64,000 nt of DNA from Parelaphostrongylus tenuis (taxonomy: Eukaryota; Nematoda; Chromadorea; Rhabditida; Metastrongylidae). The notes below the pieces were generated by a model. The model was not told the origin of the DNA. It did no database searches and saw nothing but the letters and a program-made list of their open reading frames with translations. Every line of letters begins with the position of its first letter. The first letter of the stretch is position 1. Positions 7,436 to 47,157 of this stretch are shown here, piece after piece. Where the stretch lies: positions 62,001 through 126,000 of the forward strand of contig JAHQIW010002266.1 in the NCBI GenBank assembly GCA_019055375.1, in the 5' to 3' direction. The position numbers and the translations under genes are program-made.

Positions 7436-10400
7436 CTGAAGAGCTTTTAAAATCTCCGCGCTGTCTCATATTAGTTGTAATGTGCAAGCTCTGTTTTGAT
7501 TATTCCAAATGGTCAAACCTGCAGAATAATGAAGTCCTGATTTTGTAAAGTCACAATCTATTCCACTGTAAAGATCAGTCCTGCCAGAAAGTTGAGTACC
7601 TCTTTTTCAACAACATGATGCACTTTTTTCTCAAATCCCGAAGGAGAACAGTTCGCACAAACGATACTTTCTTGCTGTCTGATGGGGTTTTGAAGGAACC
7701 ACTTTTGCTGCACAAACATACCAATAGACTGTTGGTAATCACAATTACTAAATTTTAGAGATTTTAGATATACTTGTTTTTCAGAAAGGTCTTTTCACAG
7801 TGCTGTAACAGGAAAAATGAATTGTGTTCTGCAAGCTTACAATTTTTTTGTGCAGATATAATAGACGAAACTTCCTTTCTATAGTCTTCTGGGCTTAAAC
7901 TTTTATTTTCTTCTAATTTCGCCAAAAAACCATCTAGTAATCCTTAGCCTAAGTCTCTGCACGAAAAGCATATGAACGTGTGGAGGAAATCTTCCAGTAT
8001 CAGAGTCTTATGTTCTTTCTCGAGCTTTTTTTTTCAAAGCGGAGAAAAACTTGAATTCGATAACAAATCGCATTCTGCATGTGTTGCGCTTGCGCAGTCG
8101 ATCGGTTGCGTATCGATCCGCAGCCATTCACATACCTTTAGCCGACAAGCAATGCACAGCTTGTTCAATCTCAATCTTACTTTCCCGGCTACTGTGTGGT
8201 TTGACGGTCCTTTCAGAAAACAAGCACACTGCTGAACCAGAACTCAGGCTATCGAATAGTTAGCAGTTTTTTGAAAGGAAGAGCTCTATCCTGTGAGAAA
8301 TACGCGTATGTGAACACAGATCAATCTTCCTTGCTACAGCGCTGAACAAAATCTTCTGAAAAAGAACACATACTGAACTCGCTGAGGTCTACGTTATAAA
8401 TAGTGGGCACTTCTTCGTTATCTGTGCATGTTTCGACCCCTCAGGAAGAACGCAATTTGCACTTTTTCTAAAGGTTATGTGCTAATTTGATAGCCTAATT
8501 TAGGACAATTTTAACGGTGTATTTTATTTTCAAAATGGCTCCTTTATTATGCTGAAACAAGAAAAATGGAATTTTGTTTCTCATTGAAAAATTTTTTGCT
8601 CAACAAAGCTATTTCTATAGACTCATTAGTCGATCGGTAGACGAAATCTCAAGGATTCAACGATGTATTTGGTTTCTGAAACGAACTCTTAGTGGGCTGT
8701 AACAGTCGAAAGAAAACTGGTTCGTTCTCGCAGTGGGCGCGCAGGGTGTGCCTTAACCGAAGGGGGTTTTTCGTTTTAAATAAAAAGCATGAATCAATAA
8801 ATTAAAGGGTATTGCTTCCTCATCGGGTTATTTCAATCGAATGAGCTTTTTCTCTAAGATACTTTATTATCCTTTTATTATTGTTTGACCCAACCTGTCA
8901 TGTGATCTGGTAAGGGCCCTTGTACAGCCCGACACACGTGTTTCGCCCCCACGGACTCGTCAGTCGGGCAGAACCCGTCGTCCCTCGACCTTTTTATATA
9001 GTCAGTTCCTCCGGGAGCCCAGCTCTCCCTACAGAGAGTCATCAAAGACGAGCGCTCTATACGCCATGTCAAGTGAAACCCTCACCCAACGCAGAGTGCT
9101 GCGCACTCGATTGCTCCTTGGCTGGTAGCTCCATCATTCCATACCCCCACCCCGAGTGCTCCGTTAAGACCACGCTCAAACTTGGGCTCCCGGGAACTGA
9201 CTATATAAAAAGGTCGAGGGACGACGGGTTCTCCCGACTGACGAGTCTGTGGGGGCGGAACACGTGTGTCGGGCTGTACAAGGGCCCTTACCAGACACGA
9301 GCATGGTTTGAATTGACGAGATTTAAGCTATTGAATAATTACTAAAAATGCATGGGAAAAGAAAAAATCCTTTTTTTTTTATTGAAAGTTTATTTGAATC
9401 AGAAACACAAGTTTATTTTTGCTACTGCGAGTTGATAATAAAGCCATATTGAAAACAAAGGACAGCGATAATCTGAGGACATGATAACATGTTTGATTTT
9501 GTTATGGGGTCTGGCAGGACCCTTATACAGTACTAGAGAGCTGCTGTTTTGCCCTTAGAGGTTCCTCAGTAGCACGGTGCTTTTCGGTTCAGCCGGTATT
9601 ATACCCTTACATATAGAAGATTCGACGCCGAATAGCAGATCTCATCGCATAACTTCCTACTTTTTTTCTTACCTTTTCTATCATCCCTTACAATCAAAAA
9701 TTTTTATATTTCTTTAGTGATGCCGAGGTTTAGAGATAGTCGCTCTTTTGAGAATTACAGGTCACAGGCAAGTCATTTGACAAAATCCCTCGATATTGCA
9801 GCGACCACAATCAGTCGCTCGATTTCTTTATATGTAGGGGTATATTCCATATTCCTAAGGGAACGGCTGAAGCGAAAGGCAGCGTCATACTGGGAAGCTT
9901 GCAAGGGTGCAACAGCAGCTGTGTACTACTGTATAAGTGGCGCGCCAAACCTCGGAACAGGCTCAAATATGTTATCAAGGTATCAGATTATCGTTGTTTT
10001 GAGAGAAATCTATATAAATAGTCGATAGTAGAAGTACAGAGTGCAGTTTTGAAAGCTCTGAGATTTGAGCTATTAGATAATTGTTGAAACTTGGAAAAAA
10101 GCCAAGAACGCATTTTTCTCAACGAATCGAATAAAAGTGCAGACAACAGGGACGTCCAGTTTCGCGGAATCCAGTCTTTTTTCAGCTGTTACAGACCTCT
10201 AAGAAGTTCGCTTGGAAAATTAATAGATCATTGGAATACTTGATATACAAGTTTTTGAAGCTCTTGAGAAATAGTTTTGTTCAGTGAGAATTATTTGGAT
10301 GAGAGACAGAATTTTTTGCTGTTTCAGCATAATAATGTAGCCATTTTGAAAATAAAATGCACCAAACGAATTTTTTTGAATTAGGCTATCGAATTAAAAC

Positions 10401-12569
10401 TTTAGAAAAGCCTAAAAATTGCGCTTCTTCTTGAGAAATCGGAACAGGGCGCAGATAACGGAAAAGTACCCAATTATTTGCAAAAGTCCAAAGGAAGAGC
10501 TCTGTTGTGAGAAATAGAAGGTTGCTTGAAAAGTTCGTCCCGTCGGTTCTTGTTATGATTTTTGCAATTAAATTGCATAATTTTTGCATAATTTAACTGC
10601 AAATCATCGCAGGATCATTCTGAGGTACAACTTGATAATACTTGCCTTGAGATGGAGTTGTCTCGCCCCAATCTCCATTGATCCTAGGTGCCGCTTCACT
10701 AGTATTTTCCCTACGCGCCATTCGCGTATGAGTAGCAGGCTAATTCTTTCTCAAGACAGCCTTATCTATCTCCAAACAGTTACAGGCAACTTGTATACCA
10801 AAATACTCACAAGGAAACGCGCATTTCAGTGATGCCTAAATTGTGCAACTTCATGGTGCAAATCATATTGAAGACCAAAAGGGAACAAATACTTTTCACA
10901 TATCACATTGCAGGCACGATGATATGCGATGTGTGTAAAACATAACCTTATCGTCAGTGCTACAACAGTAAAAGGGCTTTATGGGAAACAAGTATCTATT
11001 TGAATTTATCGATATTCACGCTTTCGATTAATTACTGGAGGTTCAATGAAAAGTTTTATCCAATAAAAAACTCTGCTTCAAGCATATCTCTCCGATTACA
11101 GAGAACTACCGCACATGCATTGATGAAGCCAGTGAACATGCTAAGGCTTGTACGATTTCTGAAGCGATTATATCCATACATCAACGTAGATTACTATTTT
11201 ACAATTATGATAATGCATTAAGAAGCTATGCTTCTTGAACTTACCACCCGCTTCTACCTTTTCATCATTTTTGAACAGTTTGTACAAAACATGATTGTTC
11301 AGTATGAGTCATTGTGTGCAATTTCAACTCACCACATCCAAAGGCTCCCAATGAGAGAAGAAGAACCGGGTTAGTACAGAAAACAGCTCCTCTTATAGCC
11401 AAATCCGTGGCAATTGAGTTTAAAGACAGAAAGCATATCAAGAAATCCGAGAAAAAACATGATCTTATAACAGTAAAACTTGAGCATGTTTTGCGTGACC
11501 ATTGCAATAAGGCACAGAGCATACAAGACCTGTAATTGCTTAAACAATTCGAATTCAGAAGAAAGCGATTACATCTGAACGTTGAGTATCGGTGCCACCA
11601 AGGCAACGGTTGGGGAGACTTTTATGCAGTTATGTAGGCCAAACATTTCAAAAGTTCTACCTTTTATTTATATGACAGCGAAATATTAGCGTTTGAAAGC
11701 TGGTACATTTGCGGTCCCACGGCTACAGGATCTAAACGCGTTCGCTTCATTGAGACAAAAACTGTCTGTTTGCTCCTTCAGCATACTGGTGCTCATACTC
11801 ATACCAGATACCGAAAAACCTCTCCTCTTATGGCCAGATATCCAGATTATTAAGTTCACAAACACAGAAAACACATTGAAAAATCCGAGAAAAAACATGA
11901 TCCTATAGCACAGAAATCTGAGCATAATCTGTTTGACAATTGCTACAAAACACGGAGCTTACAAGATCTGTAAGAACACCGAAGCGGTTACGATCAAATA
12001 TTAGGTATCTTTGAGTTGTGAAATAGTTATGGTGGTCTCTTTCCTTTTTAAATAATCGAGGCATTGACAGGTTTTCAAAGTCCTTAAAAACTACTTAAAT
12101 AATGTTTTTCGGAATGCTGATATAGCTTCAAGCACTCGTTTACACTACCTAAGCGCGTTCAACGAGTAGAAGAACTGCGTGATCGCTCCATCAACATACT
12201 TTTGCCCATCTCTTATACACAAATGAATGAGATTGTTCGCCCTCATGTAATGTGCTCGGTCTTTATGAGACGAAAAAAAATTTATTAGTGAGAGAAAACG
12301 ATCACAATCGCTCCAAACATCCCCGAAAAAAATTCCGATTCCTTCCATAGTGATTAGAGTAGTGAGCTAGTACTCATCAACTTAAAAAGATTGAGAAAGC
12401 AAACCTCCACCATTGTTCCAGTGACTAAAAAATAAAGCCCAATTGGCCATTGCACTGATCCGGTTTCGTACCATTCCTCTATGGTTTTATTCGAGCAGTC
12501 GTATAAGGGAGGATATGGATGGCCATGTGTTACTGTGTAGATGAACGCCATATGTCGATCAATCAACAT
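6281..12569 (-). CDS. Srt-type (class T) serpentine chemoreceptor, six exons, one frameshift
   Basis: A seven-helix G-protein-coupled receptor of the nematode Srt family, expected in the cilia of chemosensory neurons. Exons (minus strand): 12405-12569, 11333-11529, 7212-7435, 6901-7044, 6536-6659, 6281-6489. All junctions are GT-AG with matching phases, giving about 353 residues, the usual Srt length. Family marks: YDCSNKTIEEW before helix 1, GLYFLVTGTMVEVLYALC across the first junction, CYKIMFFLGF (helix 2), LAIRGAVFC, a GCW start to helix 3, FNSNYVSWFF before helix 5, and IIYLLVNRTIRR after helix 7. Exon 2 is 197 nt where phase needs 196, so an extra A near 11420 shifts the frame. The gene is either a very young pseudogene or the base is a sequencing error. 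Intron 2 is about 3.9 kb and full of transposon remnants; intron 5 is only 46 nt. Confidence 0.85.
7550..8620. repeat. Degenerate copy B of the GACGGC TIR element family
   Basis: The segment fills part of Srt intron 2. It shares ordered blocks with copies A, C and D: GAACGTGTGGAGGAAATCTT, AATCGCATTCTGCATGTG, GACAAGCAATGCACAGC, CTATCGAATAGTTAGCAG, AGAAATACGCGTATGTGA and a CTGAAACAAGAAAAATGGAA block. Clear terminal repeats are not visible, so it is truncated. Confidence 0.55.
8927..8969 (-). ncRNA. Hammerhead ribozyme motif, left arm (G at the cleavage base)
   Basis: Minus strand: helix I GCCCGA/UCGGGC, core CUGACGA, helix II GUCC/GGGC with loop GUGG, GAA, helix III inside ACACGUGU. All paired elements fit a type I hammerhead. 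Base 17, just before the cleavage site, is G, which normally blocks cleavage, so this copy is probably inactive. Confidence 0.75.
9233..9274 (+). ncRNA. Hammerhead ribozyme motif, right arm (decayed core)
   Basis: Same helices as the left arm, with CUGACGA intact, helix II GUCU/GGGC, and ACACGUGU then UCGGG. The second core box reads GGA in place of GAA and base 17 is again G, so activity is unlikely. Confidence 0.7.
9346..10507. other. Srt intron 2 interior, nothing recognised
   Basis: AT-rich intronic sequence with faint similarity to the flanking TIR family blocks (for example AAAATGGCTCC-like words). The 103-codon plus-strand frame at 9717 has no family signature and opposes the gene. 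Confidence 0.4.
10508..10915. repeat. Palindrome of two facing mariner 5' ends (copy 1)
   Basis: The left end begins GGTTGCTTGAAAAGTTCGTC, a mariner-type terminal repeat, and a related inverted sequence ends the element on the right. Between them a short plus-strand piece (ACTTGCCTTGAGATGGAG) faces a longer minus-strand piece that translates to the transposase N terminus (ARRENTSEAAPRINGDWGE, the region of the first helix-turn-helix). No DDE catalytic region is present. The same architecture occurs at 23513, 35717 and 55565. Confidence 0.65.
11333..11529 (-). CDS. Srt gene exon 2 (helices 1-2), carrying the frameshift
   Basis: The exon begins after TTACAG with GTCTTGTATGCT (VLYALC) and ends GGATGTG before GTGAGT, phase 1, which fits exon 3. 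The reading frame VLYALCLIAMVTQNMLKF then CYKIMFFLGFLDMLSVF is lost at the TTTAAACTC run near 11420 and resumes one base on with NSIATDLAIRGAVFCTNP. The two halves together match the family without a gap, so the event is a single-base insertion. Confidence 0.85.
11822..11967 (-). pseudogene. Decayed duplicate of Srt exon 2 inside intron 1
   Basis: The segment starts after CTTACAG with ATCTTGTAAGC, so the family Tyr codon is TAA, a stop. It then encodes CYRIMFFLGFFNVFSVF, matching helix 2 of the true exon, loses frame, and similarity ends at the AGAGGAG that begins the next motif. It lacks a donor and could not be spliced productively. This is a local exon duplication rather than a second gene, since no other duplicate exons are found. 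Confidence 0.8.
12405..12569 (-). CDS. Srt gene exon 1 (extracellular N terminus and helix 1 start)
   Basis: Fifty-five codons from ATG at 12569. The next ATG in frame, codon 7 at 12551, is an alternative start. The exon encodes the family's pre-helix 1 motif (PPLYDCSNKTIEEW, then WPIGLYFLVTG) and ends GTGGAG before GTTTGC, phase 0. The conserved Asn-Lys-Thr is a likely glycosylation site. No signal peptide is seen, as is usual for this family. Confidence 0.85.
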
Positions 12570-12624
12570 CGTACTTGAGAGTGTGGATAGAAGTCCAAAA
12601 TAATCAGAATTTCATATCAATAGT

Positions 12625-12645
12625 TGCGAACTGAAAGAAGTCTGC
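12625..12645 (-). promoter_or_regulatory. Possible trans-splice acceptor of the Srt gene
   Basis: On the minus strand TTCTTTCAG precedes TTCGCAAC about 60 bases upstream of the start codon. That spacing fits a spliced-leader acceptor in nematodes. It is a motif match only. Confidence 0.35.
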
Positions 12646-13493
12646 ATACTTATTTTCAGCGAAAGAGGAAAAAAACGAAGAATAGACGCGGAGTCATCAA
12701 ACTGCTAAATTTTTCAAACAGCTGAAATCAACGAGGACATCATGACTTTTAGACTTTGACGTCGATTTTGTTTTTCCTAACATTTAAACAGCTACTATTT
12801 TTCTGCCTGAAGAATCCCTTTTTTTCGGAAGGAGAGCAGTGGCTTTACTCCAACTGAGGCACAACTGAAGATCCACCGAACGAATTTTTTTTCAGTTTCA
12901 CGAAGAAATAGGAAATTAGCTTGCAAATTTATCAGGTCGCTCCTCAAACTGACGTCGGGTTGTAATTTTAATGAAGTGCTTATTCTGTTCTGAACTACAT
13001 GCTAATTTGACAATAAATGTTGAGATCCGACATCATAACTCACCTGACAATGCCAGTAACACTATTATTAAAACTTTTCTATGTGCCTTCAAATACACTG
13101 ACGACCACATCTCACAAAAAGTGTACGCCCCTGTTAAGTTGCTCACAAATACTTTTTACGCCACTTTTTACGATTGCTTGTCAGAGATAGGTGTCATTTT
13201 TTAAATGAGGCTACTTTGGACTTGTTACCTAGATAACAGTTTGCAAAAGCTTGTTTGGACGAGTCTCATATGCAGTGAGAGAATATTGCTGCCAAAGAGA
13301 TTATGTTGAATAGAGAATGCGTCTAATGAGGATGACATAAAGATGTCTGTGCTTGAATACTTCAGTTTGTCACTCAGAGTCTATAAACCATCAATGTGCG
13401 CCACTACATGCCGTTCCTGGAAACATCATCAAGTCATATTGTTTATACTATATTTTTTCCATGACTAACAATATATGCACGCAAACTACATTT
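12646..13493. other. Upstream of the Srt gene, nothing recognised
   Basis: Likely holds the receptor's promoter; no motif could be singled out. The frame at 12971-13204 has no family signature. Confidence 0.4.
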
Positions 13494-13529
13494 ATTCATA
13501 TATATATATATATGTATATATATATACTT
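13494..13529. repeat. AT microsatellite
   Basis: Alternating TA with single G interruptions. Confidence 0.9.
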
Positions 13530-13543
13530 ACATTTATATTTAT

Positions 13544-13595
13544 GTTAGTTTGGCGCAAAGTAATGGCGGTTTATGCATTTTTGAAATTTATAGTT
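13544..13595 (+). repeat. Solo mariner terminal repeat
   Basis: TTAGTTTGGCGCAAAGTAAT followed by GGCGGTTTATGC resembles a mariner 5' terminus. No transposase follows directly; the next mariner end begins at 13738. Confidence 0.55.
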
Positions 13596-13737
13596 TGATA
13601 TTGGAATAAGTAAATTCTTGCATAAAAGCTGTGATGTTATATATGGTTTTCACGCACATCTGTTTGCTCTATGTTTCATCGCTATGACGTTTTACTTGCC
13701 GTTTAATTTCTATTTCTTCTAAACTATGGATCGGCTG

Positions 13738-14420: not shown

Positions 14421-14576
14421 AAGACGACTAAAACATTTTTTAGATTATATGCTAATGTTTTAACGAGGTTTGTAATATACAGTCGACTAGAGAAACTTGC
14501 TTCTCGCTGGCAAAAGTGTGGTGTTTGTCAGACATAATCATTTTGAAATTCATGGTCTGAAACCGCTATTAGTTTT

Positions 14577-14613
<37 letters not shown>

Positions 14614-14673
14614 CCTATCTCTCTCGTTCTCCCTCTCTTTCTCTCTCACTCTCTCTACATATATATATATATG
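14577..14673. repeat. CT-rich then AT microsatellite
   Basis: A (CT)n tract with T and C interruptions runs into a short (TA)n tract at about 14658. Frames across it are low-complexity and not genes. Confidence 0.9.
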
Positions 14674-14699
14674 CATATAAATGTATACACGTAGTTTTT

Positions 14700-15355: not shown

Positions 15356-15360
15356 TTCGC

Positions 15361-16198: not shown

Positions 16199-16219
16199 TT
16201 CAAAAAATTTTATATGACG

Positions 16220-28340: not shown

Positions 28341-29136
28341 TCACGAGGAGACGCTTGTTACCGCAGACACTCGAGCTGATATGTCAACGTGGAATTGCTT
28401 GGGCTAAAGGCAACCGAAACCTTACATCCGAACTTGCGAAACGCTGTAGAGTAGTGATAAAAGAAGACCTTAAAAAGAGATGAGCAGCAGTTATGACAGA
28501 AGCTGCAAAAGCTGGGACGAGCATTTGCAAAGCCCAGCGAGGCTTCGCCAATTATGAAACCAAGATGATTGCATTCCAATGCCCTGACGATACACTTACA
28601 CCTTCCAGAAGGGCTATGGAGAAAATCGTCCAGCAGTACTTCTTGGATCTCTTCGTTAGCCACGTCCTCTTACCGCCATTGAAATTGAAAGAAGATGAAT
28701 CAGTCGTTCTACACGTCCTCTCTTCTGAAATCCGACATGCTATATCGTTAGTGAAGAACAGAACAACAGTTCCAGACAGGATTAGACAGAGCACCCGAAG
28801 AACTTACCGCCAGTTTTCATCAGCACCCTGCTCGACTCTTCACTCGCTACCTGTCAGAATGCAAGATCTCTTTCAATGGAAAGCCAGAAAGACCGTATTG
28901 TTGTTTAAAAGGGACGAAATAGGCAATTATCGCCCAATCTGTTTGCTGTCCGTTGCCTATAAACTCTTTACTCGAGTCATCCTAAACAGGATTGACAGAA
29001 CACTGGACGAAGGACAGCCATGCGAACAAGTAGGGTTCCGAAGAGGATATAGTACCATAGACCACATACACAAGTTTACACAACTCATTGAAATTCCAAA
29101 AACAATGCTTTAAGCCTAAACGAGGTTGGTACGCCA

Positions 29137-29185
29137 GGGTCATACACCGGTGTTTCGGAGGTTTCGGCCTCCTCGTCAGCGATCC
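29137..29185 (-). ncRNA. Hammerhead ribozyme, core intact
   Basis: Minus strand: CUGACGA, helix II GGAGG/CCUCC with loop CCGAAA, GAA, helix III within ACACCGGUGU, A at the cleavage base, then UGACCC. Helix I (GGAUCG/UGACCC) has one A-C mismatch. Confidence 0.8.
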
Positions 29186-29403
29186 CCGCCCCACATTGAG
29201 CCCTGCACTGTAGCAAGGAGGGAGCCGTACGTGGTGATGGCACAGTGTACAAAGACACTGGTCCATCACCACCTCTCAGTCGATGGATTTTGGCTGCTAG
29301 ATCAAAGTTGATTCATCAGATCGACTGTTTTTGAAACTTCGCAAAAAACATTCAAAATAATTCAAAAAAGAATGCTTTAAGCCTAAACGAGGTTGGTACG
29401 CCA

Positions 29404-29452
29404 GGGTCATACACCGGTGTTTCGGAGGTTTCAGCCTCCTCGTCAGTGACCC
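29404..29452 (-). ncRNA. Hammerhead ribozyme, complete and fully paired
   Basis: Minus strand: helix I GGGUCA/UGACCC, CUGACGA, helix II GGAGG/CCUCC with loop CUGAAA, GAA, helix III within ACACCGGUGU, cleavage base A at 29410. All invariant core bases are present. Predicted cleavage lies between 29410 and 29409. With the motif at 29137 it bounds a monomer of 267 bases. Confidence 0.87.
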
Positions 29453-29654
29453 CCGCCTTAAAGTATTCTTTTTGAAATTATTTTGAATGTTTTTTGCGAG
29501 GTTTCTAAACAGTCGCGATCTGATGAATCAATTTCGATCCAACAGCCAAAATCCATCGACTGAGAGGTGGTGATGGACCAGTGTCTTTGTACACTGGTGC
29601 CGTCACCACATACGCCTCCCTCCTTGCTATAGTGCAGGGCTTAATGTGGGGCGG

Positions 29655-29703
29655 GGGTCATTGACGAGGAGGCCGAAACCTCCGAAACACCGGTGTATAA
29701 TCC
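29655..29703 (+). ncRNA. Hammerhead ribozyme motif, inverted arm (C3 mutated)
   Basis: Plus strand: GGGUCA, then UUGACGA where the core needs CUGACGA, helix II GGAGG/CCUCC, GAA, ACACCGGUGU, A, then UAAUCC. The first core base is U, and helix I is weakened, so it is probably inactive. Confidence 0.75.
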
Positions 29704-30975
29704 TGGCGAACCGACCTCGTTTAGGCTTAAAGCATTCTTTTTTAGAATTAATTTGAATGTTTTTTGCGAGGTTTCAAAAACAGTCTATCTGATGACTCAT
29801 TGAAATTTTACGAGATTACAAACAACCACTCTGTCTCACGTTCATCGATCTATAAAAAGTCTTTGATTCAGTGGAAACAGAAGCGGTTATAGAGGCTCTG
29901 GATAACCAGGGCGTCCCTACTCGGTGCATAATGATCCTTCATGAGCTTTATAAAGATTTCAAGACCAAAATATCTCCATTCTGCAACAGTATCATCATCG
30001 ACGTAAGAAGAGGGGTTCGACAAGGCGATACAATTTTGCTAAAACCATTTACTACCACCCTACAAAACGTCATGCGAACATCAGAATAGAACGAAATGGG
30101 AGTGAAAATTGACGGTTGACAATTAAACCATCTTCGCTTTGCTGACGATATCGTTCTCATAACACCAAACGTCAGTCAAGCGGAACGAATGTTACCGTTT
30201 TCGATAACGCCTGTGGAAAGATTGATCTTCGATCGTATCTAACGAAAACAGAGTTCATGAGGAACGGTGGGTTTTTGAACGCCCCATTCACGTTCAACGG
30301 AACGAAAATCTCCGAATGCTCCAGTTACGTCTATCTAGGTCGCGAAATCAACATGATGAACGACCTAACTCCAGAGTTGAGCAGGAGACAACGAGTGCCT
30401 TCGTTTAGGAGTATCGAAGATGTAGTAAAGAGGACAAAGAACATCCGAATTCGTGTCCACCTTTTCGACTAAACCATTATCCCTGTCCTAACGGATGCAG
30501 CAGGAATCTGGTCGCTATGTAAGCAGGATGAAAGATCACTTGGCGCTATTGAACACGCAGCCAAAAGGTTGATGATGGGAGTATACTATATTCGCAAATA
30601 AGAGAAAGGATCCGAAGTTCCGACTTGCGTCAACGATCGAAAATTAGAGACGCCGTTCTGTACGCCAGGATATCGAAAATAAGGTGGGCCGGACCCGTAA
30701 TGCGATTAAGCGACAACCGATGGACGAGTGCCGTTACCGACTGGATTCCTCGGTACATCAAGCAGTCTACAGAAAGACCACCAACTCGTGGCCCGATTTC
30801 TTCACGAAAGCCATAGAAGAAAGATATAATGCTCAGCGAATCCCTAGAGCGAGGAGGACCCACTGTGCTACTCTCATGCAATAGGAAAAAACGAAAGTGT
30901 TGCTGATACTTTGCTCGAGCCTCTCGATGATCAACGAGAAGACAGGTGTTACAGGTGAGTGCCGGCATTTTTTTA

Positions 30976-36010: not shown

Positions 36011-36029
36011 TTAACACCTTGACCACCAC

Positions 36030-36210: not shown

Positions 36211-36862
36211 CCATCCCAAAATCCTGCACCACAGGGGAAAGGCTAGATATACACGAAAAGTGAGATTTTGAGCTCTCATTAAACATTTCTGAGTTGCCTT
36301 GTCCAAAATCATTCAATCAAATTTATCTTCTGATTTTTCTTCTTGACTGCTTCTCTTTCTTGATACCCTAAATGTATAATGATCAGAAAGTCAATCACTT
36401 TGCCAGTCTGTTCTTTGAAATAAAATTTATGATGAGACCTTTAGCTGTGGAACTAATTCATTTCATGAAATACCCCCAAAGTCATGATAGTGATTGAAAG
36501 TTAGAAACTGATTAAATATCTCTCAAAAATGATGCTGCACATTGCATGCGATGCCACTTTAATAGTTATGAAGAATTAACTAATAGAAACTCGTGGATTT
36601 GGAATCCTTTTGAATCACACAAAAACGTTATTCTATTGTTTATGGATACTATCTTTTTCGTATCCGCGTTTATTCTGTACTGTCAACACATTTATCGCGG
36701 AATATTTACACTGGGCATTGCTACCATTTGCACCCTTTACGTATTCCTTTCAGCGCCCTCAGGACGACTCCATGCGCCTGATCAGTTTCCCACTTCTCCT
36801 ACTAACTCCAATGTGACAGCCTCCAATTAGCTAGACGTCCAGCATCAAAACAGAGACTTCTT
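36211..36862. other. Intergenic, nothing firm
   Basis: The plus frame 36546-36830 contains two hydrophobic stretches but has no family signature and no splice context. Confidence 0.4.
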
Positions 36863-36922
36863 TAGATCCTTTCATTATTATTTTAGCCAACTTGTTTGTG
36901 GTCTGGTAAGGGCTCTTATACA

Positions 36923-36965
36923 GCCCGATACACGTGTTTCGTCTTAACAGACCCGTCAGTCGGGC
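36923..36965 (-). ncRNA. Hammerhead ribozyme motif, left arm (A9 to G)
   Basis: Minus strand: helix I GCCCGA/UCGGGC fully paired, helix II GUCU/AGAC with loop GUUA, GAA, helix III in ACACGUGU, A at the cleavage base. The core reads CUGACGG, so the last conserved A of the first core box is G. This is the only defect. Confidence 0.78.
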
Positions 36966-37124
36966 AGAACCCGTCGTCTTTTGATATCTTTCGATAAACA
37001 CTCTATGTTAGGTGAAAATTACGCTTGACGCAGAGTGTGGAACGTTCGTCTTCGATGACTCTCTGTTAGGGAGCGGAGCTCCCGAAAGAACTGACTTCAA
37101 AAATATCGAAAGGCGACGGGTTCT

Positions 37125-37167
37125 GCCCGACTGGCGAGTCTGTAGAGACGAAAGACGTGTATCGGGC
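37125..37167 (+). ncRNA. Hammerhead ribozyme motif, right arm (A6 to G)
   Basis: Plus strand: helix I GCCCGA/UCGGGC and helix II GUCU/AGAC (loop GUAG) are fully paired, with A at the cleavage base. The core reads CUGGCGA, and helix III has one G-G mismatch, so activity is doubtful. Confidence 0.78.
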
Positions 37168-37227
37168 TGTACATGAGCCCTTACAAGATCACAGACAAGT
37201 TGGCTTAAATAATAATGAAAGGATCTA

Positions 37228-39682
37228 TTGAAATTTGAGCGTGGCCTTAATAAAGCACTCGAAATAAAGAGACTTCTTTGCTGTCCAACGGCTTCCGATG
37301 GGTATCGTTTCTACCAATGGCGATTATTTCATACACTGCATACTTTGTTTTGGTTCTTCCGGCTAACAGGTTCGAGTATATCTGTGACGATGGGAGGGAC
37401 GATAGCGGGAAAACACGATTTCACCCTTAGGAGTTGTGCGACGGAAGTGGGAAGTCTGAGTTGGAAGTAAAGTCATTTTTGTAGCTTTCCTATAAACACA
37501 GATTCCTAGTACGTATTGGCGCACTTCCCTATACACAATAAGGGCTAGAAGTATGGCTCGCCCAAGAATGTACCTTTCGAATTGAAAGATGGGGATTTTT
37601 GGATCACGTGGGCATTCTCCATGCGAACAATACGCTTCTACAATCAACGATCTACCGTTTCAGGAGAATAATTTGCTCAAAAAGTAGAATTTAACAGTAT
37701 AACAGTCAAAAAGCCAGCGCAAAGTTCAATCAATGAGCTATCTAGTCCAAAAGCAAAACGCAATTCTCCTTTCACTTATTACAGCGTAATAAAAAGGTTT
37801 TCTTAAATAAATCAAGTCTGGTACAAATCTCCAATTGTCAAGCTACTGATTGATGAGTAATACTCTAATGAAAAATACTCTTCTGAGTACAAAAGGAAAG
37901 AAAACACGAGTACATTTCAAAAAATGTAAGTGCAATTCGCACAATTCTTAATAAAACGTGGACGTTTTTCGGTCAACTAGGTGCTCCTTCTGCTTTAAAC
38001 AAGTTCTTAGAAATCTTTTTATGGCGGCAAGATTTCCGTGAAATCAAAATTCCTCATGGAATTGGGCAAAACGTTATCTTTCTTTTGGTTCCTAATAAGT
38101 ACCATGAAAGTCTCTTTACAAAATAAATGTAGGACGTCTCTTTACAAAATAAATGTGGATTCTTAGGCTATCAAATGACTACGAAAAAGTAGAAAAAAAA
38201 GAAACGAATGTTATATGATAGCTAGAAAAATGTTTCCTTTGACAACAATATGGTTTTCTCGTTGAAACATAGATGATTTTTCAACAGATGAGAGGTTCTC
38301 TTTACTACAACATTCTTCTTAGAAATATATTTTGTACTATTTCATTATAAAATCAAAATTTTCTCAGGATTAAATTTTGCGGTCTAACTTCGAAAATTCA
38401 CTGTGAAGTTGACGCAGTAACTCCTGAGCCAAGAAATAACTCTTTTTCTGGTTCTCTGTTCGTACTCTCAGAAACCATGCTTACTGCTAGAATCTCCAGT
38501 ACTCAAACTAACGAACGATTACTGATAATCTAGTGAAAAAGCTTTTTTTTCTGCAAAGTCGAAGAAAACAGGAGCATTTTTCGTATAATGCGATCGCCAC
38601 CACTCAATTCGTGTTGAAAGTGAAGTCTTTTAAGACTAGATGAATGCTCTTTCCCTAATGGTACGTTTATAGAAGCCCATCGCATAACAGTCTAATTTTT
38701 CCTAGCGAGAAAGTTTGATCAACATAGAGATTCTACTATATAACAAATCCGTTGTGTAATTAGTACAACTCACTTCGAGAGCAACACCTTTTTTTTCGTT
38801 AGAAGATGTAATATGAAAGTTCTTCAACATTTCAAGCCTATTTTGAGAATCGACAATTTTCAAGCTATCATTCGAGTACGAAAACATAGATCAAAAAGAA
38901 AGAAGCAAATGTTTTATAACAACTGGAATTAAGTTTCTTTTTTCTCCAAGAAGATGTGGCTCTTTTGTTGAAGCACGAAATGCTTTCGTGCTGATGAACG
39001 TCTTCCTTACTGAAAAACCCTTATAGGGTCTCGCCTGAGATAATTTATGATCCAGTTTTGATATGTGCCCTTAGAACCTCAAATCAACAAATAAATTCCT
39101 TCTCCATAGACGTGTGATGATGCGAACCCACCATCGGCCCACCTGCCGCGCGGCACACAACCTGTAGCAAAAGGGGTAGATGTGGTTGTCAATGGTTTTA
39201 ACAAATAGGTAAATTAGTCCTCTGATTTTTTCATTATTTAAGGGTGAATAGTCTTGGAGACGTAAAGCGGAAAGCCAACTGCAAATGCGGAGAGTCTCTG
39301 TCAAATGCATGGATTTTGATGAGCATTTGCTATTTTCGACTTCACACTCCAATTTGCGAAAAATAGCATTACCTTCTAGTGGAGTTGTTAGAGGTGCTCA
39401 GCAATTAGGACTGCGTCAAGGATTCGATCGCAGGCCTCATGCCAGCAAAACTTCTTAATCCGCGTGAGTAAACAGTTTCGTACAAGGTACTGTGTGGGAA
39501 TACAAAAACTAGTGTGATACACCGGCATGCACCTTTACGACGTTCGATGAAGTCGAATGCAAACTTAGCCATCTCATCGTTTATTAATTCGTCTGAATAC
39601 TACGACACAATGCTTTCTCTAAGCAACTGAACTGAAATGAGTATTCGGGATGCTAAATGATTAATTATTCGGTACTCATATA
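37228..39682. other. Intergenic, nothing recognised
   Basis: AT-rich sequence. A 25-base word (CTCTTTACAAAATAAATGTAG and flanks) is tandemly repeated at 38112-38160. Confidence 0.45.
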
Positions 39683-41075
39683 TTAGACGGCGACAAATGA
39701 AAAACCGATCGCATTTGCTAAATAGGAATCGTTCATAGGGAAGTTAGTGATTATTTGAAAGCCTAAAACTCTTGCTACAACTACACGTGGTCGGTTTTTC
39801 AAAACAACCTTTTATAATGCTGTAAAATCCAGGATAAAACTGTGTTTCACACTACCGCGTGTTTTTTTAGCTCGCTTATAATTCGCTGGACAAAACCCCT
39901 TCCTTAGAGTACTAGTACTCATTCGGCACCGCGGGCCTTGAAAAACTCAAAAATATATTTGCCTTTTGGAAAGGCTCTTTTGACAGCGCTGTAGGAGAAT
40001 GAAAACATTTGGGCTCGCCGGACACACCTCTTTCTTCAGACTATTAGTAATCATTCGATGGTGTAAGTATCAATGATTTCAACGTTGTGCTTATTTTCTG
40101 GAAATACCGTTCAGTAGGGAAGATAAGATCGAGTTAGACATTTTCGACGAGTTCGTCTGCCGGCCAATTCACGGGACAAGGAGCGCAGGGAGTGGAGGGC
40201 AATCACGTCCGACATGCTGTTATTCAATTGGAATTTTTTCTCCGGTTTGGATTAAACTCCAGATAAAAAAAATTGTCTCACATGCTACGAGAGTCCTTCA
40301 ATATGTTGCTTTTCGTGCTTCCAGAGAATTACACACGAGGTAAAAATGAAGGCGAACGGCGGATGTGAAGCATAATTTCATTTTGGATTTTACTGCAGCA
40401 AAGGCAGTTCAGTGGTAACATTGAGTTGTTCAAGTTGTCTAGGCCACGCGGGACTTTTATTAGCTGCTTCTATGCCGAGCTCCTTATCTTAGACTATCGT
40501 TTATCTTTATAATAACAGTACAACGATAACAATGGGCTATATAGGGCGGTTACAATTAGCGTAGACAACAGAAGAGCTAGTCGAAGAAGAAGGAAATCGA
40601 AGTGCAGGAAAGTCGAAGTGGAAGCCTGGGAATCAACCTTTGACCATTTACATACATTTCACCAAAGGGCGGGTTTAAAATTAGAGTAAAACAAAGGCAA
40701 AGCTAAGGTTGGAGAGTCCAGAATAAGATTAGAGACTTCACAATTAGGTCACGTGAAAAGCTCAAATGCTTACTGTAAACATGATCTAAAGTGCATCGAA
40801 AGCTCAACCGTCTTTTGACGCATTTGCATGGACTTACGAAATTTGACTATACGGATTAAGTGTACCAGTATAAATCAGTAATTTACACTTGAGAAAGGGT
40901 GGACAACATTCGGTATATTATGGGGAATGTTGTCTACCTTTACAGCGTTATTAAAGAGTCTTTTCAAAAACCGAGAACGTGGGGATGTAGCCAGAAATCT
41001 TTGGATGATTACTAACATTCCTATGAAAAGCTCTTGTCCAACGAGTGAGATCGGTTTTTATTTGTCGCCGTCTAA
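39683..41075. mobile_element. GACGGC TIR element, best-preserved copy
   Basis: A 1393-bp element with about 80-bp inverted ends: TTAGACGGCGACAAAT, AAAACCGATC and GTTAGTGATTATTTGAAA on the left, mirrored by ATCATTC-like, AGATCGGTTTTTATTTG and TCGCCGTCTAA on the right. It has no transposase frame, so it is non-autonomous. Degenerate relatives lie at 4885, 7550, 14700, 15361 and 16816. A target-site duplication could not be settled. Confidence 0.75.
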
Positions 41076-41279
41076 CATATTAGCACCAATTCATCAATAG
41101 TAGCTGTCAAGAAGGCATGAGACAAATACGAATAACTGAAGAACAGTGGGCATAGCAGTTTGGAAAGAGCGGTAAACGGTTTTCACCGAAGTAGTACCTT
41201 GTAAAAAAAAGGCTCAAACGGGCGTCAGCTTTTTAGCTGTGTTACCTTTCAAATCTGGTATTGTCTTGTGGAAATGTAG

Positions 41280-41698
41280 CTACTTCTTAGAATAGTTCTT
41301 GTACTTATTAATGACATCCTTCAGAGCTTGTTGACGTGAAAGGAATCTTTTTTCATCCAAACTATCAACTCCCGAATATAATAAACGAAATTTGGAAATG
41401 CCTAGCTTCCCAACTTCCCAAGATTGGCCAAATAGTAGCAACTTTGTCAAAGTAGAGTCATCTATCATATTTCACAGAAACTTGAGAGCATTTAAATTGA
41501 AATATTCTCAAGTTCTATAAGGCGGTCCGTAACCGATTGTGTGAACGTCTCAGCGAAATGAAGAATCATATAGTTTGTCGTATTAATAGAGACGGCGATT
41601 GCTTGAGATCTGTTACGATGTCCGTAATCTCTAATTGGGTATGCAGGGACGAAGACGACGAAAACGGCATGCCATTCTGCGTCCGTATAATGGAGCAT
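41280..41698 (-). other. Two adjacent open frames, possible gene fragment
   Basis: Minus frames 41492-41698 (68 codons) and 41280-41468 (62 codons) have balanced, non-repetitive composition, for example YTDAEWHAVFVVFVPAYPIR and LSRQQALKDVINKYKN. They follow each other on the same strand but are in different frames and no good intron joins them. I do not recognise the family. They could be a decayed gene or chance. Confidence 0.2.
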
Positions 41699-41699
41699 C

Positions 41700-44600
41700 T
41701 AGTTAAAAATTAAAAACCAAACAAAGCATCCGAGTATGTACGCATAGAGAACAAATAAGTGAAAAGATTTTGATTTAGAATCCAGTGCCCTCGTACACAA
41801 ATTAAAATATTTGCGAAACTCTTAAACTCTTTGGATAAATGACAAAGGTCCAAAAAATAACTTTTAGAGGGTTGTCTCGTGATCATGCGTGACCTCGGGT
41901 AATACCTCAAGCTAATTTTTCGCAACGTGAGCCAGTCACATTCTTACTCCGTGCAAAATGCTGTGCGGCTTGTTTTCAACGAATAATTTTGCGCAAGAAA
42001 CGGTGATAATTTCAAAAAGAAACTGTTGGCTGTGCGAACCAGAATTTGCTTATCATATTTGTTTTTGTTGAAGTTACGAAAGTTGGAGTTGGATGGTAAG
42101 CCAGCTTGGCCAAAATCATGCACTGAAGAGGGCGACGTAGTTGAAATGTTAGCCATCATTTTATTGTACTTCAGTGTATTCAATAAATTCTGCTATCAAT
42201 AACCACGGATCTGCTCATGAGAAGAAACTTTTTTTTATCTATGCCGAGATTATTATGTAGTGTTTCTTTAGATTACTTTGTACTAGAAGAATCCAAATTA
42301 TTTGTAAAAGATCGACTTCTAATCGTGTCTTGACATCTGATGACATACATATGGCATTTTCAGATGTGGCCAAATACGATAGAAGACGTAGGAACAGCAA
42401 AAATGAGGTATTACTGTTATTAATAACCCATAGGATTATACTAAAACAAGCGAGAGAGACCAGTCACACTGTTGCTGGTCAAAGTGTTCATATTAGTATT
42501 GAGGGGATGATCAGTAACCAGTTTTTGAGCGCTGAACTAATTTCTTTGAATCGCACGTTTATTTTTCAATTATTATATCGGAAAAAGTGGCTAAAGAGGT
42601 GTGAATTAGTGGTTCTAAGTGACCAATTTGAAAGACCGCATGTGTGAAAGATCATGGATCCCGTATCGAATGCATTAATGAGAGAATGAGCAACTGAGTA
42701 CTTCTCTCTCTCTCTCTTTTTCTCTCTCTTTCTCCCTCTCTACTCTGTCTAATAAACTTTTCAATAAGAACTCAACATAATAGTTCGTGACGAAGCAGTT
42801 TCAGCCATTTAACACTCACACTACCAAATTACCTCTATGGAGGTCATGAGATGCGGGAATGATTGGCACATTCACTTTTGTCGCATTATATCTCAGTGCA
42901 TAGTGAATTTCATTAATTTAATCCAAGAACAATGCTATCTAAAATTTTTTCCTACATGGAAGTATTTCTTCAGCTTTGTCACCATAAAACTGCGATCCTC
43001 TGGATACCACGAAATATATCCCTACCTCCGTTGTTTTAATTTTCATATTTCGAATATGTAGGCAGAGGAACAAACAAAATTTCGTCCAGCAGGATGAGAT
43101 TGCGTTTTCGTAGTATTTCATCTATTTTTACAACTGCTACTCTTTTCTTTGGTGTTTCGTAGATTGAAATTTCGCTTCCAATCAAATTTTGTTTGTAGTT
43201 GCTTGAAGATAATCTTAATCTCAAAAATTTCTAGCATAGAAAACATACTGTATGAAGATCACATATAATGTTAGTACAGTAAAGTCTCTTCTTCAATGAA
43301 ATTGTAAAGTTCTAAACTTTTAAATACTCTAGCAATCGAGAAATCTTCATCAATCACCGAACGACCAAGTTTTTCGGAAAAGTTTAGTAATAACTGTTAG
43401 TGCAAGAGTCTACAATGGAGAAGGTCGGTTGGAAGCGCGCAAGCTTGTGTGTAAGTCATCTAATGAAGGTTTATCTAAATGAAAGGGCAATAAAAGGACA
43501 GTTCAGAAAACATGCCGAGGTTTCGGTCTTTCGAATTGTTGCAAACGTTAGAGCTCCAGCAATTTCCTTTTGTCCATAATTATACCTCGCTTTTGCAATT
43601 TTTCTCACACCAACTATAACTGCTTTATTAATTACTAAAATAAACGAAAGTCCAGTTTTCCCTTCAACGCAGTTGAAGAGCTTCAATGTAATTGTATTTC
43701 GTCATTTTGAGCCACTGGAGTAGTAGGAGAAGTCTTGTGAGTGTTCACAAAATCATCACTCCATTGAGACTTCCTTCGTGGTGAAGCAGACGGTACTGTG
43801 AAAGTGTTTAAGGAAACCATTTCACTTTCCTTGTATTGAGTGCCACTAAATATTTGAGCACCAATAAGAGATGAAAATGGCAGTTACACACCATCATTAC
43901 AAAAAACTAACTCTGCCTTCCACTCGTTACAGCCGTCGAATTGACAGCAACAGAACGTCTCGTAAGCCGATTGCCAGTGACATCCAGTCATCTAAAGAAC
44001 TATGCTAGGAATGAATTATTGGTAGTATTTGTCTCAAACGGCTTTACGCCACCCTGATTTGTCGGAGTTCAGGAGCAAAAATCTGCTAGTAATTTCAAAT
44101 TACATAAGAAAATTTACAGATTTTGTTCGAGAAGATACCCTGTTCTTTCTGAGGGTATCATCAATCTTGCAAACGATTCATGCGATCTTTGTCCGTCGTT
44201 GCGACCAAATTAGTTAATTGTGATAGGTTACAATACACATATATTGTGAAAAGCATACCGGGCATTTCTCTTCCATGTTGTGTTCGTCAGAAAATGAACT
44301 GCATTCACGACGAATTAGGTTATTCTTCTTATCAATCTTTTGAATACAGTAGTTTGAGATTGGACTGCAGGACTAGAAATGAATTATGAAGATAAGGAAA
44401 AAACTCAAAGGTAGACTATTATGTCTTCAGAACTACTCTGTTTGCTGATCAAGAACACGATAAATTGATAGTTTTTGTCATTTGAAACGTTTATGCAATA
44501 TTTTCAACATTCAACGATTTCTTCGGATAGTGAGGAGTAGAGGTGAGGGTTTTGTTTCTCATTGTTGAACTTCTGCCGAAATGTTTCGGATCTTCTCTCA

Positions 44601-45305
44601 CCAGATGTATAGTTATTCTTTAGAAGTAAACTTACTACGCTAAAAAAATCCTTCTGGAGATGAGATATAGGTCATTCAAAGCAATTTTAACGAAACCACG
44701 GTTGACGGCACGCTGTCTATACGTTTTTATTCTGGATGAATGGAAAGGATAACGTATCATTGCGAGATTGGTGAAACGTTGAAGCTAGAGTCAAAAAATG
44801 TCTCTTGACCCAAACAGCAAAAATGAAGTTGTACTACTTCAGTGTCAAATCTCTTGCTTTATCATCTATGCAGAGCTTTTTATAGAACAATACAAGAAGA
44901 GATTGGGATCGACATCGGGGTGCTGCGTACTTATTAACGAAAGATTTACTGTGAAAAGAGACCTGAGCACTATCTTAACATAGGGGTGAAGGATGGATAA
45001 ATATTTAGTAGTTATCATGCAAGCTAACCTTGTGGGAAAAGGGTACAGATTTCGCTACACCCATTACGATAATAATATATGGCTCACAGAATCGTTCTTA
45101 TAAAGTTCCTCAAGCTCTTTAAAATCTCTTTTTCACTTTTGTAGTCGAAGGATAAAACGACAATTCATGAAATCAAGTCAATTTGTTTGATTACTGATCA
45201 ATAAATAAACAGTGATCTTAATGCGTAACTAGCCATGGGACTGGTTGACTAATCGGAAATCATTCTATTTGACAGCCTATTGCAGTGTCATGATGTTGCA
45301 ATAAG
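41700..45305. other. Intergenic, nothing recognised
   Basis: Contains a short CT microsatellite at 42703-42741. No exon chain, RNA gene or element could be supported. The 105-codon plus frame at 42330 has no family signature. Confidence 0.45.
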
Positions 45306-45594
45306 CCCAATGATGCAGAGTGGCGTGCAAAAACATTTGCCTCAGCCGCATTCGAACCCACATCTTCCTCTTTCCGGGAGCTTATGCTAAACCGTTGCAC
45401 CACCGACGTTCACCTGCCCGCCACACCACAGAGGATTGGCTGTTGACAGATAACGCGTTGTAGCGTAGAAAGAGTAGAGTGCAAAACGAGCGTCGGTGGT
45501 GCAACGGTTTAGCATTTGCTCCCAGAAAGAGTAAGATCTGGGTTCGAATCACGGCTGACGCAAACGTTCTTGCACACCACTCTACATCACTGGG
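45306..45594. repeat. tRNA-like foldback repeat, best copy
   Basis: The inverted arms are each about 105 bp, with ends CCCAATGATGCAGAGTGG on the left and its diverged complement ending CATCACTGGG on the right. Each arm holds a tRNA-like body. The right one (45490-45561, plus) folds as a 72-nt cloverleaf: acceptor GCGTCGG/CTGACGC, D stem GTGC/GCAT, anticodon stem TGCTC/GAGTA, T arm CTGGG-TTCGAAT-CACGG with one mismatch. The loop CCAGAAA has C at position 33, so it is not a normal tRNA. Confidence 0.75.
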
Positions 45595-45757
45595 TTGACT
45601 GGTTGACTACTGAAGAGTCAAAGTTTTGATTACTGGTATATTAGAAGGAATAAATTTGATGCCATATGTGAGACTCATGGAAAAAGCTTTGTGAAGTTTA
45701 TTTGGTTTTGTGTCAAAAAGAATTGCAGATGTAAATTATTTTGGAAAGTTTAACAAC

Positions 45758-45865
45758 CTTTTCTTCTGTCCTAGTGTTATTAGTTAGTCCTTGAAGAGTT
45801 CCCTCGTAGCATCTCAATGAGAGACCGGTGGCAGCAAAAGCCATTATCACAAATATGCTCCACAT
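45758..45865 (-). CDS. Candidate first exon of a small secreted protein
   Basis: From ATG at 45865 the 36-codon exon encodes a signal peptide (MWSIFVIMAFAATGLSL), then RCYEGTLQGLTNNTRTEEK with one Cys and an Asn-Asn-Thr sequon, ending AAAG before GTTGTT at phase 0. A start followed by 'LRCYxG' is typical of nematode Ly6/three-finger-like secreted or GPI-anchored proteins. CTTCAG directly precedes the start and could be a spliced-leader acceptor. No second exon was found before the foldback repeat at 45594, so the assignment is tentative. Confidence 0.4.
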
Positions 45866-46231
45866 TCTGAAGTGTTTGAAGCTCCAAGTATTATAAGTTT
45901 CATGATTCCATAGGGAACAGAAGGAGCAGAAAGTAATGCACAAGATATTCTACTTGTGAATCTACTGCATAAAGTTTGAAAACAAACGACTCGATCTACT
46001 GCATATCAGTACTACGGAAAATTGCGACATACGTAGAATAGAAAAGGTAACATCGCTTTTTTGAAATTTATGGGAGACGCCATAATTTGGACTTCAATAG
46101 TTGTGACACTAACTCCAGATGATTTTTAAGGCTAATGTCTAAGTATGATTTTGCTATCGATTGCTTTTTTACAGACCCGCTCAAAATGATTTAATCTGAT
46201 AAGGATATGACATATTTGAGCCATAGGTCTA

Positions 46232-46279
46232 GTGCTATATAGGCGCCTATTTCGTCCTATTGGGACTCATCAGTAGCAC
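46232..46279 (-). ncRNA. Hammerhead ribozyme, complete and fully paired
   Basis: Minus strand: helix I GUGCUA/UAGCAC (six pairs), CUGAUGA, helix II GUCC/GGAC with loop CAAUA, GAA, helix III in AUAGGCGCCUAU, A at the cleavage base (46238). Every invariant base is present. Predicted cleavage is between 46238 and 46237. Confidence 0.88.
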
Positions 46280-46639
46280 CCTCCCTCGGTTCCGTCGATC
46301 CCTTGAGGTGAAATAATCCTCTAAAGGAACCGACGTCGAGTAAAATTAAGCACCCAAAGTAGGATGATGGTATTACCTGACTTTGTGGTGACCAGCAGTA
46401 GAGGTTACGGCTAAAAATCAAAATATGTCATATCCTTATCAGATTAAATCATTTTGAGCGGGTCTGTAAAAAAGCAGTCGATAGCAGAAGTATAGTTCAT
46501 TCTAAAAGCCGTAAGCTCGGCTGCCGGTCACCACAAAGTCAGGTAATACCATCATCCTACTTTGGGTGCTTAATTTTACTCGGCGTCGGTTCCTTTAGAG
46601 GATTATTTCACCTCAAGGGATCGACGGAGCCGAGGGAGG

Positions 46640-46687
46640 GTGATACTGATGAGTCCCAATAGGACGAAATAGGCGCCTATGTAGCAC
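46640..46687 (+). ncRNA. Hammerhead ribozyme motif, inverted arm (G at the cleavage base)
   Basis: Plus strand: CUGAUGA, helix II GUCC/GGAC, GAA and helix III are intact. The base before the cleavage site is G and helix I (GUGAUA/UAGCAC) has one mismatch, so cleavage is unlikely. Confidence 0.78.
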
Positions 46688-46773
46688 TAGACCTATGGCT
46701 CAAAATATGTCATATCCGTCTCAGTATAAATTCTGAAGAATGTTTAAAGCCTTACCCGAGGCTGGTACGCTAA

Positions 46774-46820
46774 AGCTATTCACGCGTGTTTCGGAGGTCT
46801 CGCCCAACTCGTCAGTAGCC
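46774..46820 (-). ncRNA. Hammerhead ribozyme motif, left arm (decayed)
   Basis: CUGACGA and GAA are intact, but helix II (GUUGG/CCUCC) has mismatches and the 15.1-16.1 pair reads A-A. Probably inactive. Confidence 0.65.
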
Positions 46821-47017
46821 CATGCCCCAATTAAGCCCTGTATTGTAGCACGGAGGGCGGCGTATGTGGGTGACGGAACAGTATACAATAACACTGTGCC
46901 ATCATTACTTCTTTGTCGATAGGTCCCGGCTGGTAGAACAAAATTGAACCATGGCATCGATGTTTTTGAAACCTCGCAATAAACATTCAAGGGCCGTTTA
47001 TATAGTATATGGGGCGT

Positions 47018-47066
47018 GGCCTACTGACGAGCGGGGCGAGACCTCCGAAACACGCGTGTATAGCCC
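47018..47066 (+). ncRNA. Hammerhead ribozyme, core intact
   Basis: Plus strand: helix I GGCCUA/UAGCCC with one C-C mismatch, CUGACGA, helix II GCGGG/CCUCC with one mismatch and a GCGAGA loop, GAA, helix III within ACACGCGUGU, A at the cleavage base (47060). Confidence 0.78.
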
Positions 47067-47157
47067 TGGCGTACCAACCCCGGGTAAGGCTTTAAAGGTT
47101 CTTAAAAACTTATATTGAATGTTTATTGTGAGGTTTTAAGAACAGTCGATGCCATGT

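Follow-up and report, generated by a model that had tools for sequence, protein, structure and literature searches.

Within a 64-kb stretch of contig C1537 from a nematode genome (hereafter the window), five palindromes each carry a hammerhead ribozyme motif in either arm. Is the palindrome itself the mobile element, or is the symmetry left behind by the way in which a simpler element inserts? An earlier note on this DNA proposed the former, a class of palindromic retrozyme-like elements of a symmetric design that had not been described. Judging from the copies in the window and in the 481.5 Mb of genome searched, the symmetry is most likely the footprint of insertion and not a new kind of palindromic element.

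Five Foldbacks and Their Hammerheads

Inverted repeats are confirmed at all five places in the window, with arms of 43–198 nt that are 85%–98% complementary. The inverted-repeat and structural scans together bear out the hammerhead in each arm reported in the earlier note, the left one of the last foldback being a remnant recognized by eye. Two further observations of that note hold as well: the left hammerhead is on the minus strand and the right one on the plus strand in all five foldbacks, and in every family helix III forms a short palindrome, here 8–12 nt long. Three families are represented, F1 at 8.9 and 36.9 kb, F2 at 29.1 and 46.7 kb, and F3 at 46.2 kb.

The first F1 copy (F1a, 8869..9297) has a minus-strand left arm (8869–9183) and a plus-strand right arm (9186–9296) with an atypical right end. 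Its left hammerhead (8927..8969, minus strand) has an intact core with G at N17, and its right hammerhead (9233..9273, plus strand) combines A13G with G at N17. A duplication of at least 6 bp was looked for around F1a with an end-based finder, and none was found. The second copy (F1b, 36864..37267), tailed at its right end only, lies between plus-strand copies of a 12-bp target duplication (36852..36863 and 37268..37279); its left hammerhead (36923..36965, minus strand) carries A9G (CUGACGG) and its right one (37125..37167, plus strand) A6G (CUGGCGA). Close to F1a is a probable sixth foldback, old and F3-like (9462..10056), with arms that are 75% complementary, a segment (9960–10056) matching positions 58–151 of the F3 unit, and a decayed minus-strand hammerhead found by the structural scan (9530..9575). 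Both F1a and this older copy lie between the arms of an 84-nt inverted repeat (8483–8566 and 10313–10396), which are 82% complementary and separated by 1.7 kb.

The larger F2 copy (F2a, 29096..29794) consists of about 1.35 units in minus orientation followed by about 1.3 units in plus orientation, with a tail at the right end only. It has three hammerheads: an outer left one (29137..29185, minus strand) with an intact core and an imperfect stem I, an intact inner left one (29404..29452, minus strand), and a right one (29655..29703, plus strand) with C3U (UUGACGA). The F3 foldback (46139..46716) is tailed at its left end only; a duplication around F3 alone was looked for, and none was found. 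Its left hammerhead (46232..46279, minus strand) is intact and scores 29.5 bits against Rfam Hammerhead_1, below the gathering score of 34, and its right one (46640..46687, plus strand) has an intact core with G at N17. The neighboring F2 copy (F2b, 46725..47162) has a tail at the right end only, a weak 7-bp duplication (GTCTCAG), a left hammerhead remnant read by eye and missed by the structural scan (~46773..46821, minus strand), and a right hammerhead with an intact core and an imperfect stem II (47018..47066, plus strand). These two adjacent foldbacks (46133–47170) have related words at the left edge (CTAATGTCTAAG), in the middle (GTCTCAG), and at the right edge (CTAATGTCTCAG), as would result from the insertion of one into the target duplication of the other. 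Elsewhere in the window are two tRNA-like matches above Rfam gathering, at 3900–3971 (minus strand) and 45490–45562 (plus strand), which resemble each other and may represent either tRNA genes or the heads of SINEs derived from tRNAs.

The structural scan described a type I hammerhead (CUGANGA, stem II, GAA, stem III, N17, stem I) with at most one core mismatch. It gave 14 matches in the window: ten lie within foldback arms, and one of the other four is the decayed motif at 9530..9575. In three mononucleotide-shuffled versions of the window the scan matched once, three times, and twice. Rfam Hammerhead_1 reaches 29.5 bits in the window (E = 0.0034), 31.0 bits in the F1 copy L052 (E = 3.5e-4), and 29.5 bits in 11 units of the F3 array L067, all under the gathering score, and for F2 Rfam gave no hammerhead match in the window (E up to 10) or in copies L029 and L033 (E up to 1). 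Despite these sub-gathering scores, the F1 fold is supported by covariation: across 27 distinct F1-type hammerheads (a set including L010:1107–1149, a possible chance match whose core has a mismatch and whose stem differs), 96.3% of pair cells are paired, and there are 22 double-change cells compared to a shuffle mean of 5.8, with none of 500 shuffles reaching 22. Among the motifs detected, cores are intact in 26 of 33 (F1), 21 of 28 (F2), and 58 of 60 (F3), and position 17 is A in 29/33, 26/28, and 59/60, respectively; all these shares are upper estimates because the scan admitted at most one core mismatch. No foldback of the window has an intact core and a cleavable N17 in both arms; such pairs exist elsewhere, as in L067.

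Repeat Units and Their Arrangement in the Genome

Direct tandems give the period of the repeat unit: 318 nt for F1 (L052), 269 nt for F2 (F2a), and 281 nt for F3 (L067). Each unit contains one hammerhead, and the hammerhead on the opposite strand belongs to the other arm. Foldback arms correspond to circularly permuted stretches of the unit, the shortest measuring about 0.12 unit and the longest several units. In L067, seven hammerheads lie in the left arm and four in the right one, and a locus on contig C780 has one minus row and seven plus rows. GC content is 41.8% in F1, 46.8% in F2 (under 50% but not under 45%), and 43.8% in F3.

The earlier note spoke of at least three unrelated families. 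To call the three recognized here unrelated is too strong, as shown by a comparison of the 3′ regions (the segment between the cleavage site and roughly the outer end) with 1,000 dinucleotide shuffles. The score for F1 and F3 is reached by none of the shuffles and that for F2 and F3 by one, so F3 links the retrozyme families through this region; between F1 and F2 the same comparison found no clear similarity (176 of 1,000 shuffles reach the score). A separate local test agrees (0, 2, and 228 of 300 shuffles for F1–F3, F2–F3, and F1–F2), and when whole units of F1 and F3 are compared the best match is the tail region (E = 2.4e-4).

Genome-wide, the best 40 candidates were scored per DNA query, out of 2,751 (F2), 2,289 (F1), and 1,852 (F3) first-look candidates, so locus totals are lower bounds. 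Among the matches listed, our own clustering gives 38 F2 loci (17 head-to-head, nine direct, 12 single) and 39 F3 loci (16 head-to-head, seven direct, 16 single). The whole-genome listing of F1, in which the left arm of F1b is missing, was left out of the pair counts; the 16 F1 loci fetched comprise ten head-to-head, two direct, and four single. Fetched loci (20 F2, 16 F1, and 16 F3) came from the best-scoring rows, and those of F2 and F3 are enriched in head-to-head copies relative to the average. In 264 kb of whole stretches, chosen regardless of layout with the exception of the window, there are 37 clusters: 16 head-to-head, one mixed, one direct, and 19 single. Leaving out the window, 29 clusters remain (11, one, one, and 16, respectively). 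In the mixed cluster a minus piece directly follows a plus piece and may belong to a neighboring copy. Plain tail-to-tail pairs were seen neither among the F1–F3 loci listed, nor among the copies tiled, nor in the 264 kb.

The outward-facing hammerheads of the foldbacks exceed chance. The finding that the earlier note had named as evidence for chance, a preponderance of solo or direct copies, is borne out about halfway: the head-to-head layout accounts for a large share of the copies and is not their fixed form. Direct, head-to-tail tandems include L052, L060, L067, and L068 among others, and many copies are single. A few assignments depend on the method. Copies L035 and L043 (single by row clustering) and L081 and L082 (direct by row clustering) are head-to-head on tiling, and L073, head-to-head by row clustering, is direct by tiling and is outside the 45 head-to-head copies analyzed below. 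L081 and L082 (C2515/C974) appear to be a single locus present twice in the assembly; each is counted among the 45. The same spacing recurs on different contigs in C1378/C1603, C2515/C974, and C1048/C4943, probably reflecting haplotypes or duplicated assembly.

Ends, Junctions, and Target Duplications

We tiled 65 copies on the units; 45 are head-to-head, and 38 of these can be classified by end sites. Outer ends of the 45 cluster at two sites, an inner one ~40–75 nt past the cleavage site and an outer one 43–51 nt further (midpoints). With windows for the two sites that were defined after inspection of the data, 34 of the 38 classified copies combine an inner with an outer end (tested against free choice at one half, binomial P = 3e-7). 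Broken down by family, with all 45 as the base, the pattern is found in 17/17 copies of F3, 8/12 of F1, and 9/16 of F2. Exceptions among the 45 are three inner/inner copies (two of which, L052 and L061, have ends cut by the stretch fetched), one outer/outer copy, and seven with an end elsewhere. The tail, that is, the segment between the two sites, is on the left in 19 copies and on the right in 15, and the central junctions of head-to-head copies scatter across the unit.

Target duplications of 9–16 bp flank 29 of the 65 copies and 26 of the 45 head-to-head ones. Two of 370 mismatched control pairs reach 9 bp compared to these 26, and none reaches 11 bp compared to 21 of 45; in 14 of the 45 no duplication of at least 6 bp was found, and in five it measures 6–8 bp. 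The clearest single case is F2a, whose insertion interrupts the reading frame of a LINE RT (RVT_1, E = 2.8e-6; at 27.6 bits slightly short of the cut-off of 29.6). The frame, which contains the left copy of a 13-bp duplication (29083..29095, plus strand), breaks at ...TQLIE and picks up again past the element, at the right copy (29795..29807, plus strand), as LIEILRDYKQPLCLTFIDL followed by a stop. Given the broken frame and the duplication, both arms arrived in one event.

The arms also bear on the template. Arms that cross the cleavage site or are longer than one unit do not come from a cleaved linear monomer; many F2 arms, in a set found with a near-full-unit query, measure 1.0–1.4 units. 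F3 private variants differ across the arms of one insertion by a mean of 2.98 per ~155 nt, compared to 3.79 between insertions, a degree of sharing reached in 37 of 2,000 permutations (nine insertions; 48 of 53 pieces used); this would fit one template, or sibling templates, per insertion. In L067 some variants are confined to certain units, which may speak for a multimeric template or for later change.

Penelope-Like Elements and a Proposed Origin of the Palindromes

The same genome is rich in Penelope-like elements (PLEs). A GIY-YIG search gave 1,723 first-look candidates; 150 of these were scored, and all 150 were above the cut-off. Among the matches listed, GIY-YIG neighbors less than 6 kb apart on one contig are head-to-head in 20 cases, tail-to-tail in none, and on the same strand in two. 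One PLE (L049), with RT and GIY-YIG in a single 893-codon frame, has head-to-head arms (1404–3557 and 4449–6599) that are 99.86% identical, a right end 50 nt beyond the left-end site, giving a tail on one side, and a 12-bp duplication flanking the whole. Its plan is that of the small foldbacks, and it is the sole head-to-head PLE that was read. A second (L050) has pLTRs and a 902-codon RT and GIY-YIG frame and is not head-to-head in the stretch read. The best named relatives of the PLE protein are in the strongylid nematodes Necator, Ancylostoma, and Haemonchus, which points to a strongylid-like nematode as the likely host.

In the pLTRs of both PLEs we noted a minimal hammerhead-like motif (CTGAAGA...CCGAAACGTC), at 6510–6536 in L049 and on the reverse strand in L050, for which Rfam gave no match in either element. 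It lies ~63 nt before the inner end, a position equivalent to that of the retrozyme hammerhead. The hammerheads of the foldbacks differ from it in their longer helices II and III. The dimeric minimal hammerheads of PLEs that were reportedly the subject of Lunse et al. 2017 share with the foldbacks a short palindromic helix III, which could pair between two RNAs; in the foldbacks this helix measures 8–12 nt. The similarity of the retrozyme 3′ regions to the tail of this PLE family is weak and at most hints at a link: the scores against L049 are reached by 43 (F2), 204 (F1), and 460 (F3) of 1,000 shuffles, those against L050 by 15, 23, and 711, and in the separate local test against the PLE by 3, 24, and 80 of 300. 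The idea that all three families and the PLE possess one tail motif was rejected, clear similarity being confined to F1–F3 and F2–F3.

The earlier note knew of no described class with this symmetric design. For PLEs, the same head-to-head plan, with one of the arms tailed, is already in print. In the published parts considered here, the inverted pLTR of Penelope completes the insert, head-to-head is the most frequent arrangement, duplications are 8–10 bp, and one inverted pLTR optionally bears a tail (PMC3846280); the PLE protein of Anolis cuts and extends each of the two strands, its RT starting, with no apparent difference between them, at two adjacent internal sites that bound the tail (PMC11167929). 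As portrayed there, GIY-YIG PLEs resemble the foldbacks in head-to-head copies, an optional one-arm tail of 30–50 nt, short duplications, partial tandems, and a hammerhead ahead of the RT start sites (PMC3846280, PMC11167929). The foldback units differ from PLEs in being small and non-coding, too short for an RT and GIY-YIG frame.

In content, the units resemble the non-LTR retrozymes of metazoans. On the evidence of the portions of Cervera and de la Pena 2020 (PMC7229834) drawn on here, they share with these a type I hammerhead in the unit (F2 without an Rfam match), a unit length of 269–318 nt within the range of 170–400 nt, tandem copies, and duplications of more than 4 bp; no coding capacity was found in F1–F3, as in those retrozymes. 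The GC content of metazoan retrozymes is given as below 45% in a figure legend and below 50% in the text; F1 and F3 lie under both limits and F2 only under the looser one. The large share of head-to-head copies with a one-arm tail sets F1–F3 apart and goes unmentioned in those portions, and nematodes are not named in the text of that paper (0 occurrences). Plant LTR retrozymes, as characterized in the same source, are likewise non-autonomous, with a hammerhead and a circular RNA as proposed intermediate, but their type III hammerheads, LTRs, and 4-bp duplications do not fit F1–F3. The retrozyme-like character claimed in the earlier note is upheld, and in a nematode; that the palindrome is the element's own design is not supported.

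Layout, clustered ends, variable junction, and duplications are features of the copies themselves, and PLEs of the same layout occur in the same genome; from these we infer a PLE protein as the mover and a circular or multimeric RNA as the template. We think it quite likely that the foldbacks are non-autonomous retrozymes inserted back-to-back by a PLE protein that primes synthesis on each of the two target strands. Insertion of PLE type is favored because the head-to-head layout, one-arm tail, two end sites, and duplications match the published PLE signature. Against it count the weak similarity between the retrozyme 3′ regions and the PLE family read, the 14 of 45 copies in which no duplication of at least 6 bp was found, and the four of 38 classified copies that at first sight depart from the one-tail pattern, two of them with ends cut by the stretch fetched. 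The unit, of 269–318 nt with one type I hammerhead, would be a non-autonomous retrozyme of the nematode whose hammerheads would cleave in the worm, and its multimeric or circular RNA would be reverse transcribed into new sites by the PLE protein of the same genome. This protein would nick both target strands and begin a cDNA on each, starting at two neighboring internal RNA sites ~43–51 nt apart that bound the tail. Joined at a variable point, the two cDNAs would form a copy with outward-facing hammerheads, usually tailed on a single arm and flanked by a short duplication of the target, and the palindrome would be created afresh with each insertion. A more specific version is possible and is offered tentatively: one circular RNA may serve both target strands, with two PLE subunits starting at adjacent, mutually exclusive sites, which would force one tailed and one untailed arm, and the cDNAs may circle repeatedly, so that arrays would be born at insertion (bidirectional rolling-circle target-primed reverse transcription).

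We consider it very unlikely that the element is the whole palindrome, a symmetric viroid-like rod that would replicate in this form and of which either strand would yield a cleaving RNA. The symmetric plan in three families, the intact hammerheads in both arms of some copies (L067), and the central stem-loop common to F1a and F1b, which had first suggested a fixed palindromic replicon, would all suit it; the idea is largely refuted by junctions that scatter over the unit, and arms ranging from about 0.12 unit to several units, common singles and direct tandems, ends usually unequal by a tail, and a repeat period with one hammerhead also speak against it. A viroid- or HDV-like RNA with a ribozyme in each polarity of one unit was likewise set aside, the unit having one hammerhead. 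We regard it as unlikely that LINE-type machinery moves the retrozymes and that the inversions are ordinary twin priming, a habit of LINEs in which the end of the inverted segment is expected at a variable place. Variable junctions and duplications of 9–16 bp would fit, and the window does contain remnants of LINE RT, but the outer ends fall at two fixed internal sites, one at each in 34 of 38 classified copies, and a PLE of the same genome has the identical plan.

We give almost no weight to foldback or MITE DNA transposons carrying a hammerhead by chance in their inverted ends. Such ends would invert the hammerheads automatically and the duplication does flank the whole, yet a DNA transposon is expected to have equal termini and a duplication of fixed length, and the copies have unequal ends and duplications of varying length, multi-unit arms and direct tandems, and in some cases no second arm. 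Chimeras of assembly or amplification are extremely improbable: there are apparent assembly duplicates (C1603/C1378, C2515/C974, and C4943/C1048), but target duplications, two end sites, and one-sided polarity are unexpected of chimeras, and the arms of older copies have diverged.

What has moved animal retrozymes has been an open question. PLEs were already proposed as movers because of co-occurrence and shared hammerheads, according to the parts of PMC7229834 and PMC7761336 considered here. In the open-licence literature searched we came across neither nematode retrozymes nor retrozymes arranged head-to-head, and new here, apparently, are the nematode host and structural evidence for a PLE–retrozyme link that had so far been a proposal. 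Three retrozyme families bear the structural signature of PLE integration in a PLE-rich genome, which opens that link to direct testing. That copies almost as a rule combine a tailed with an untailed arm bears on the little-known mechanism of PLE insertion, and the small foldbacks are easier than PLEs to survey for it. If one circular RNA does serve both strands, this would account jointly for the tandem arrays in which animal retrozymes occur, for the inverted pLTRs of PLEs, and for the hammerhead, whose use would be to make the circle.
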